Below are positions 57,562 through 59,091 of a stretch of 64,000 bases of DNA, one piece after another. The stretch is from an uncultured Desulfomonile sp. Its GTDB lineage: Bacteria > Desulfobacterota > Desulfomonilia > Desulfomonilales > Desulfomonilaceae. The stretch covers positions 1 to 64,000 of the forward strand of contig CAJBEZ010000003.1 in assembly GCA_903952205.1 (NCBI GenBank), given 5' to 3'. How positions within the stretch are numbered: the stretch's first letter is position 1; every line of letters starts with the position of its first letter. The notes below the pieces were generated by a model. It was given only the letters and a program-made list of their open reading frames with translations. It was not told the DNA's origin and made no database searches. Position numbers and translations under genes: made by a program.

Positions 57562-58947
57562 TTATTCCTCGAACTTGTAAGCGCCTTTTTTCTCCTTATC
57601 AAACTCAAGTTTGGCTCTGACGAACTTTACGTTGTAACCAGCGTTCTTCAGAACATTGTATGCCATCTCGGCTCGAGCGCCGGTAGCGCAGTGCACCAAG
57701 ACCAGTTTATCTTTTGGAATATCCGACAATTTTGCTTCAAGATCGTCAAGAGGGATCTGCTTGGTATTGGGGAGCACTCCGTCCTGAACTTCTGAAGGCA
57801 TCCTAACATCAAGGATGATAGTATTTGCGGACGGTTTTTCCAGTTCAACCATGAAACCTTTGAGTTCAATCTCTCCAGGGAAAAGTTTCCTTACATAGGA
57901 AATCTTTGTCCCCGCTGGTCCTTTGGCGACAGTTTTTCCCGCCGTTTGCCAACCATGGAAACCGCCCGAAAGAATGCTTACCTGTTTGTAGTCCCAACCT
58001 GCTATTTCCTTGAACGTCGTTTTGGCTGAATCACCCGCTCCAGATTGATCGTAGACAATTACAGGGGCAGCCTTGTAGGTTGGAAATTGGGCTTTAATTG
58101 ATTCCAGACCTTCTTTGGGAATAGCGATAGCGTTGGGAATGTGTCCCTTGGAAATGTCATCCGGTGATCTGGTGTCCAACAAAATGTACGGCATCTCCAA
58201 TTTGTCGAGTTCTTCGATCCCTGCGATGTTTGAGACAACTATGTTCCCTCCCTTTTTCCAATCGGGGAGGCCGGCATGATAAATCTTAACATTCTTGAAA
58301 CCAAGTTTTTCCGCCTTCCTGGCGGCTAATGGACTAAGCACTCAAGAAAAGCCGGCGCAGTAATAAATCTGAAGAGCGTCCTTGTCTGTGAGAAGTTTCT
58401 CCGCCAGTTTGTCAAAGGCGAAAAAAGGCATTGAGGCAGCCGTTGGAATGTGTCCCTCGTTGAACATATTCGCCGGTCGGCTGTCCAGGAGGATATACTT
58501 ACCCTCCTTCGGGCCTTTTGCCACAAGTTTTTCCACTTCCTCAGTTGAAATAAGCTGTTCTTTGGGAACCTCTAGTCCCTTCTTGACTTCAACCTCTTTG
58601 GCGAATGTTTTACCATCCTTCTTAAAGTAAGTAATCTTTACGGATTCCCCTTTCGGGATCTCAGGCATGGAAGGCGCATTTTTCAAAACGGTGGATTCGT
58701 CAAAGAGAATAACATCCATTCCCTTGTCAATTTGCAACTGGAGGCAATTGGCTTTGACAGAGACTTCCTTTAGTTTTCCGGCTAGAACGTTTTCCTGCTT
58801 GTCATAATCATGACATTTGAGACAGCTTTGGTCAGATTTTGACGGCAGCTTCTCCGAGGCGTACGAGGTGAGTGGGGTTATCCCCGCAATAAGAAAAGCG
58901 ACTAAGGCCGCAAGACACATGGGGAGAATCAATCTCCTGGGCATCAT
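57562..58947 (-). CDS. Exported triple-rhodanese selenoprotein with one heme-c motif
   Basis: Two frames in the same phase are separated only by a TGA at 58344-58342. I read them as one 461-residue protein with selenocysteine at position 202. Residues 1-31 are a signal peptide. C42-x2-C-H46 (CLKCH) is a c-type heme site. Rhodanese 1 (about 130-232) has LLDSRPANMFNEGHIP and YYC(197)AGFS-Sec(202)-VLSP. Rhodanese 2 has LLDTRSPDD but Asp (VYDQSG) at the catalytic Cys site, so it looks inactive. Rhodanese 3 has VHCATGARAE with its Cys. AAGGAG precedes ATGs at 58947/58944. A periplasmic persulfide or polysulfide redox role is inference. Confidence 0.82.
58311..58344 (-). promoter_or_regulatory. SECIS-like element after the in-frame UGA
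   Basis: On the minus strand the UGA (58344-58342) is followed by 16 bases, then stem CCGCC (58325-58321), loop AGGAA (58320-58316) and stem GGCGG (58315-58311). Bacterial SECIS elements are short hairpins with an apical G or GG placed some 16-37 bases after the UGA, and this matches on both counts. SelB recognition is inferred. Confidence 0.65.
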
Positions 58948-59062
58948 GCTCTCCTTTCTTTTTGGCATTAAAACTCTTAGTAAATCTCAGTTTTTCTTCT
59001 CATTCTATATTCGAACAAAGGGCTTGGGATTGCAGATATAATACAGATATGTATATAATCAG

Positions 59063-59091
59063 ATTATAATTTGTTGTGGTCAAGCTGTCAA
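59063..59091 (-). promoter_or_regulatory. Perfect consensus sigma-70 promoter for the selenoprotein gene
   Basis: Minus strand: TTGACA (59091-59086), 17-base spacer, TATAAT (59068-59063). Both boxes and the spacing equal the consensus. Transcription should start near 59056, leaving a leader of about 110 bases before the rhodanese start. Confidence 0.75.

Follow-up and report, generated by a model that had tools for sequence, protein, structure and literature searches.

A gene on the minus strand of the window, the whole stretch of 64,000 nucleotides analysed, is best explained as a whole by an exported selenoprotein, a reading that we regard as very probable. Selenocysteine (Sec) would be inserted at an in-frame UGA followed by a hairpin, and the product would combine a predicted haem with three rhodanese domains; it may act in sulfane-sulfur chemistry. 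The decoding of the UGA at 58344 as Sec, taken by itself, appears almost certain from the comparative sequence evidence given below. The features of the gene are the following.

59063..59091, minus strand: sigma-70-like promoter TTGACA-17-TATAAT, 12 of 12 positions, a consensus match only
58951..58957, minus strand: Shine-Dalgarno-like AAAGGAG preceding ATG 58947/58944, by eye
57562..58947, minus strand: whole predicted selenoprotein gene, 461 codons plus stop; ATG 58947 or 58944, with ATG 58968 possible
58855..58947, minus strand: putative N-terminal hydrophobic export signal, residues 1-31, by eye
58810..58824, minus strand: c-type haem-binding motif CLKCH, residues 42-46, predicted from the motif
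58228..58560, minus strand: rhodanese domain 1, about residues 130-240, active loop C-A-G-F-S-U; boundaries approximate
58357..58359, minus strand: Cys197, catalytic-position Cys of domain 1, Cys in 48 of 51 homologues
58342..58344, minus strand: in-frame UGA, predicted Sec202, TGA in 34 of 51 homologues and TGC/TGT in 13 of 51
58311..58325, minus strand: bSECIS-like stem-loop, five G-C pairs, loop AGGAA, loop 21 nt past the UGA
57913..58227, minus strand: rhodanese domain 2, about residues 241-345, catalytic position without Cys; boundaries approximate
57613..57870, minus strand: rhodanese domain 3, about residues 360-445, canonical C-x-T-G-x-R; boundaries approximate
57688..57690, minus strand: Cys420, catalytic-position Cys of domain 3, Cys in 51 of 51 homologues

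The reading frame and the UGA column in homologues

Read on the minus strand from 58947 to 57562, the frame contains a single internal stop, the TGA at 58344-58342, with YYCAGFS before it and VLSPLAA after it in one phase. The initial annotation had described two same-phase frames parted by this TGA, which is seen directly in the sequence, and had placed the interrupted residue five positions after a rhodanese active-site Cys, which corresponds to Sec202 at +5 from Cys197. The mechanical list of open reading frames (ORFs) breaks the gene into two fragments, an upstream ORF (58342-58968) and a downstream ORF (57562-58341), and automatic annotation may likewise split the selenoprotein gene into two pieces. 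The downstream ORF starts at the GTG immediately 3' of the TGA. It had been said to lack a ribosome-binding site of its own and to begin mid-domain; no Shine-Dalgarno-like run is visible ahead of it by eye, and the break lies within the active-site loop of domain 1. The upstream ORF by itself covers only model positions 6-70 of 102 of PF00581, the split severing domain 1 in that loop, and the read-through protein scores 143.6 bits against the same Pfam model (gathering score 22.2) over three rhodanese stretches. Promoter-like sites number five in the 64,000-nt stretch, against 2.4 expected. A six-frame scan of the window for stops with more than 120 open codons on either side returned seven sites, including 58344; the two ORFs at another of these, 15069, are separate genes, as judged by their starts.

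The family of the window was searched in 18 genomes, its own genome included, several of which are only 80-86% complete. A full-length orthologue, with 56-72% identity to the window's protein, was found in 11 of them; among the seven without one, G015 has a fragment of the C-terminal part where a contig ends. The codon at the UGA column is TGA in nine of the 11 orthologues and TGT in two. When the family profile was applied to 395 genomes of the phylum at a threshold of 1e-30, 40 genomes matched, giving 44 matches, of which 29 have one TGA and 15 have no internal stop. Both searches were pooled into a set of 51 homologues, without L030 and five duplicate loci. As alignment A1, that of the family rows, prints Sec as C, Sec and Cys were counted from the codons. 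The column holds Sec in 34 homologues, Cys in 13 (8 TGC, 5 TGT), Gly in two, Asp in one and a gap in one, and neither TAA or TAG nor a Trp codon occurs at this position in any of the 51.

At this column, for which an alignment of homologues had been proposed as a check, 47 of the 51 therefore have Sec or Cys, and the C-x-G-x-x-C-x-x-S pattern that had been given for relatives is correct. A misread codon had been named as a possible refutation; the UGA recurs in other genomes, which makes a sequencing slip very unlikely. The two paralogues with Gly at the column (L082 and L087) have a loop that is one residue shorter (CVGGC; DIGGC), and the DIGGC paralogue also lacks the catalytic-position Cys. 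A contig search gave two relatives: a Cys-bearing orthologue (L048), which comes from a metagenome-assembled genome (MAG) titled Desulfomonile tiedjei and duplicates L019, and a partial match with 35% identity (L049). In a tblastn search of plasmids with 282 records, none covered 80% of the query, and the 20 matches listed were about 23% identical.

Hairpin after the UGA and selenocysteine machinery

According to the accessible text of a 2026 review, bacterial SECIS (bSECIS) elements have a loop of 3-9 nt, a stem of 4-16 bp, a G in the first two loop positions, a distance of 16-37 nt from the UGA, and a minimum free energy of -7.5 or lower (PMC13188914). The window's hairpin lies within these limits, with its AGGAA loop, 5 bp and 21 nt, and a 54-nt segment folds at -13.3 kcal/mol. 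Of the background positions, 56% also satisfy the bare published rule, as do 6 of the 13 Cys genes. As it is unspecific, a stricter form was used that asks for four or more G-C pairs in a stem at SECIS spacing, and only this form discriminates: all 34 Sec genes have such a stem, against 1 of 13 among the Cys genes and 9.0% of the 15,502 background positions. Its threshold was picked after the window's own hairpin had been seen and was counted within the same script.

The stem covaries among the Sec genes. For the covariation analysis, alignments A3 (33 of 34 Sec rows, without L099) and A4 (12 of 13 Cys rows, without L097) were used, these two loci having been dropped because the motif pattern required Y or F before the Cys. 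The covariation score of the Sec rows is 0.254, against a shuffled mean of 0.097, and none of 500 shuffles reaches it; as the rows are related, and kinship can inflate shuffle tests, this count is not a probability. The 33 Sec rows, 32 of which are distinct, have 96.3% of their cells paired, two-sided changes are observed in three of the five pairs, and sliding the stem partner drops the score to 0.067 or less. In the 12 Cys rows covariation is absent, 55% of the cells pairing, the same as in shuffles. Codon choice in the nine family Sec genes is also unusually conserved near the UGA, with a maximum at codons +3 to +11, where the excess codon identity of the best 9-codon window is 0.496 against a mean of 0.032 (sd 0.084, 369 windows).

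Folding energy of the window hairpin alone is unremarkable (z -1.36 for 54 nt and -2.24 for 66 nt). It separates Sec from Cys genes weakly, with a mean z of -1.30 (n=34) against -0.54 (n=12) and p 0.044, in a comparison that includes the TsoB-like L030 and leaves out L099 (Sec) and L097 (Cys). Single-sequence folding energy was dropped as proof of a SECIS element, being too weak alone. Rfam gave no match anywhere in the window.

The initial annotation had suggested a search of the genome for selA, selB, selC and selD. All four exceed their cut-offs in the window's genome: selA with 595.2 bits, selB with 398.6, selD with 364.2 and tRNA-Sec with 70.3, the last also being called by ARAGORN with anticodon TCA. 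At E 0.001, matches are found in 14 control genomes for selB (14), tRNA-Sec (14), selA (4) and selD (14), and above the cut-offs for selB in 2, tRNA-Sec in 5, selA in 1 and selD in 2. As the controls match freely at E 0.001, only the cut-offs count, and that of tRNA-Sec is the least specific. The selD gene itself (L050, G000:C10:29947-30867) has one in-frame TGA, as does each of four formate-dehydrogenase-type (FDH-type) matches (L052-L055), two of which exceed the family cut-off; UGA is therefore probably read as Sec elsewhere in the genome. Together with the Sec or Cys found at the column in 47 of 51 homologues, this machinery bears out the earlier proposal that the two frames form one selenoprotein gene. 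That proposal had included neither the predicted export, the CxxCH motif and the three rhodanese domains nor the rhodanese selenoproteins, one with UxxS, that are already published.

A lone in-frame stop looks like a nonsense mutation, and a pseudogene or sequencing error splitting a former rhodanese gene would leave such a trace. Yet nine of the 11 family orthologues and 34 of the 51 pooled homologues have the stop, each time as TGA and with frames open on either side, and the hairpin pairing persists among the TGA genes but not among the Cys genes, which leaves this explanation a negligible chance. It is very improbable, too, that the UGA terminates translation and a restart at the adjoining GTG yields two half-rhodanese polypeptides. 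A GTG does follow the UGA directly in the window and in six of nine family Sec genes, but it is the next codon in no more than 13 of the 34 Sec genes, the other 21 having GGC, GCC, GTA, GCG, GTC, GTT, ACT, CCT or CCG; moreover, Cys without any stop is seen in 13 of the 51 homologues, and the split point lies within the active-site loop. Reading of the UGA as Trp, or unguided read-through, would account for the open frame and nothing more, whereas the 51 homologues include no Trp codon, Cys is the sole common alternative, the Sec machinery is complete, and the selD and FDH-type genes carry TGA too; we give this reading practically no weight. Under the preferred reading, i.e., Sec insertion, SelB and Sec-tRNA would decode UGA 58344, guided by the hairpin at 58325-58311.

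Domain architecture and related rhodaneses

The product would be a periplasmic protein in which a small N-terminal domain and one predicted c-type haem accompany three rhodanese domains. In domain 1, Cys197 and the predicted Sec202 would share one active-site loop, with the motif C-x-G-x-x-U-x-x-S, here U-V-L-S; the column of this Ser is S in 45 of 51 homologues and T in 4. Domain 2 lacks a catalytic-site Cys in 50 of the 51 homologues; in one further row, L026, a Cys stands one residue ahead of that site. Domain 3 is canonical, and its R425 is kept in 50 of 51. The residues C42, C45 and H46 of the predicted haem site are invariant in the 11 family rows. A strict CxxCH occurs anywhere in the protein in 27 of 51 homologues (19 of 34 Sec, 6 of 13 Cys) and is absent from 24, including 15 of 34 Sec; four more (L075, L076, L077 and L080) have CX4CH, and L085 fits CX4CH by pattern in a frame that extends beyond the domain. 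The combination of haem and triple rhodanese is the less usual part of the protein; no paper in the partial literature covered describes it, a weak negative. A structure model built from a two-row alignment (A2) was discarded, with a mean pLDDT of 43.2.

Rhodanese selenoproteins are already catalogued, and the window's gene is a solid further example. The accessible text of the 2026 review distinguishes five forms, with the motifs UxxS (form 1), UxxG (forms 2 and 4), CxU (form 3) and UxxxxU (form 5, TsoB), and its table gives form 1 as PF00581 with UxxS and WP_010941598.1 (PMC13188914). The table of a 2016 survey contains a 'sulfurtransferase homologous to a rhodanese-like protein' with the numbers 24 and 25. 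Form 1 and the window's protein have in common a rhodanese domain and UxxS, in the latter with a Cys at -5, and may belong to the same family, the comparison being made by the listed motif alone. Since the known forms are listed and no NCBIfam model reaches its cut-off on the window's protein, we counted the gene among the known rhodanese selenoproteins.

The selenoprotein profile nearest to domain 1 is that of TsoB (NF045694), with 60.3 bits over residues 121-243, far below its cut-off of 805. TsoB has UxxxxU and a DsbD-like part, whereas the window's protein has one predicted Sec and no DsbD part in the Pfam scan. The TsoB-like genes of sister genomes have a Sec at the loop position of the window's Sec and a second Sec at the catalytic position. 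These genes (L030, L031, L035, L036, L040 and L047) contain two in-frame UGAs within a rhodanese loop, FYUAGxxU, and continue into a membrane part that looks DsbD-like by eye; the window's own genome gave no such match at E 0.001. In a second rhodanese type, L038, L041, L042, L044 and L045 have UGA in place of the catalytic-position Cys (VYUAxGGRSR), and L039 has Cys. The C-terminal part of this type may be rubrerythrin-like. The model of the rhodanese-related (seleno)protein rhodanese_LYCAU (NF041203, form 3) scores 50.6 bits, below its cut-off of 115, and its listed motif is CxU, as against CxxxxU in the window's protein.

Among more distant comparisons, the best solved relative of the family profile is PDB 1yt8, a 539-residue 'thiosulfate sulfurtransferase' (E 1.7e-20, positions 251-435), whose best stretch covers domains 2-3 and not the Sec domain; among the matches listed, PDB entries reaching domain 1 are weaker, e.g., 3nhv at 1.7e-09. 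Geobacter ExtH (GSU2940) is an extracytoplasmic rhodanese protein of similar size, 49.0 kDa; as far as the accessible descriptions go, by which alone it was compared, it is a lipoprotein in a cytochrome-porin cluster and is not termed a selenoprotein (PMC5877670, PMC6148476).

Possible function and Sec/Cys exchange

Gene neighbourhoods were compared in 54 context stretches, several of them overlapping. A PhsA-like molybdenum reductase gene lies near the rhodanese gene in G115, G170, G263 and G377, these PhsA-like genes being 55-100% identical to the G115 query; in G115 and G170 it is directly downstream on the same strand. Remoter PhsA relatives are near the rhodanese gene in G372 (39%), G230 (35%) and G321 (24%). 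The four PhsA-adjacent members, all Cys-type, fall in one five-row tree group, whose fifth member, the Sec-type L071, has no PhsA-like neighbour in its stretch. Two of the neighbours score 520 and 552 bits for PhsA, below the curated cut-off of 694. These PhsA-like neighbours support a putative role in sulfane-sulfur respiration. In one group (L107, L109, L133 and L138), Cys-type triple rhodaneses have a PhsA-like reductase gene nearby, with an NrfD gene seen in L107 and L109 and a DUF3373 gene in three of the four. Those of the window's own neighbours that were compared, CinA, a Pfam-less protein and EtfA, recur outside the window only in the G001 stretch among the 54, and the window's neighbours provide no functional hint.

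The position of Sec five residues after the catalytic-position Cys most likely points to persulfide resolution or to a Cys-Sec redox pair. With polysulfide or thiosulfate as the donor, Cys197 would accept sulfane sulfur and form a persulfide, Sec202 would then attack this persulfide, freeing sulfide and leaving a Cys-Sec bond, and this bond would be re-reduced, perhaps with electrons arriving via the haem, while domain 3 may store the sulfur or hand it on. We propose the persulfide mechanism because Cys197 and Sec/Cys202 are both conserved and PhsA-like genes lie near one clade; that Sec202 resolves the Cys197 persulfide is nevertheless a tentative assignment, held at somewhat under even odds. 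Sec may instead serve peroxide or general thiol redox, selenium delivery or oxyanion reduction, which we consider a serious alternative at about one chance in three. The Geobacter ExtH cluster is in line with it, its porin ExtI mattering for selenite/tellurite reduction according to the accessible text (PMC5877670), as is a Cys-type paralogue of one genome that adjoins yedF and a selD-like sequence. Against these stand the two conserved rhodanese catalytic Cys positions and the PhsA-type neighbours in one clade, both of which indicate sulfur. The paralogue in question (L114, 11457-14828) lies just past the yedF gene and the selD-like sequence, and a Sec-type paralogue of the same genome sits on another contig.

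A further proposal is a haem-linked selenoenzyme of one chain, acting on sulfane sulfur as a reductase outside the cytoplasm, in which the rhodanese Cys would bind the sulfur, a Sec in the same loop would resolve the persulfide, and a covalent haem on that chain would donate electrons. We consider this full scheme rather unlikely; if true, such an enzyme would be a simple counterpart to the polysulfide and thiosulfate reductases that use molybdenum.

With the UGA column removed and L100 and L101 omitted, a quick tree was built from 49 rows, 47 of them labelled. It requires at least eight Sec/Cys changes, seven of which are forced by starred branches, and the Sec/Cys label is also clustered on it, 2 of 500 shuffles being as low. 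The window's genus holds both Sec and Cys versions. Both of its Cys-bearing genomes, one of which is the MAG titled Desulfomonile tiedjei, have SelB, so that an exchange between Sec and Cys need not follow the loss of the machinery. The window's phylum gains a selenoprotein family that is well supported, has a SECIS element that covaries and has undergone several Sec-Cys exchanges. As natural Sec and Cys versions exist in neighbouring genomes, the benefit of selenium in a rhodanese would be directly measurable.
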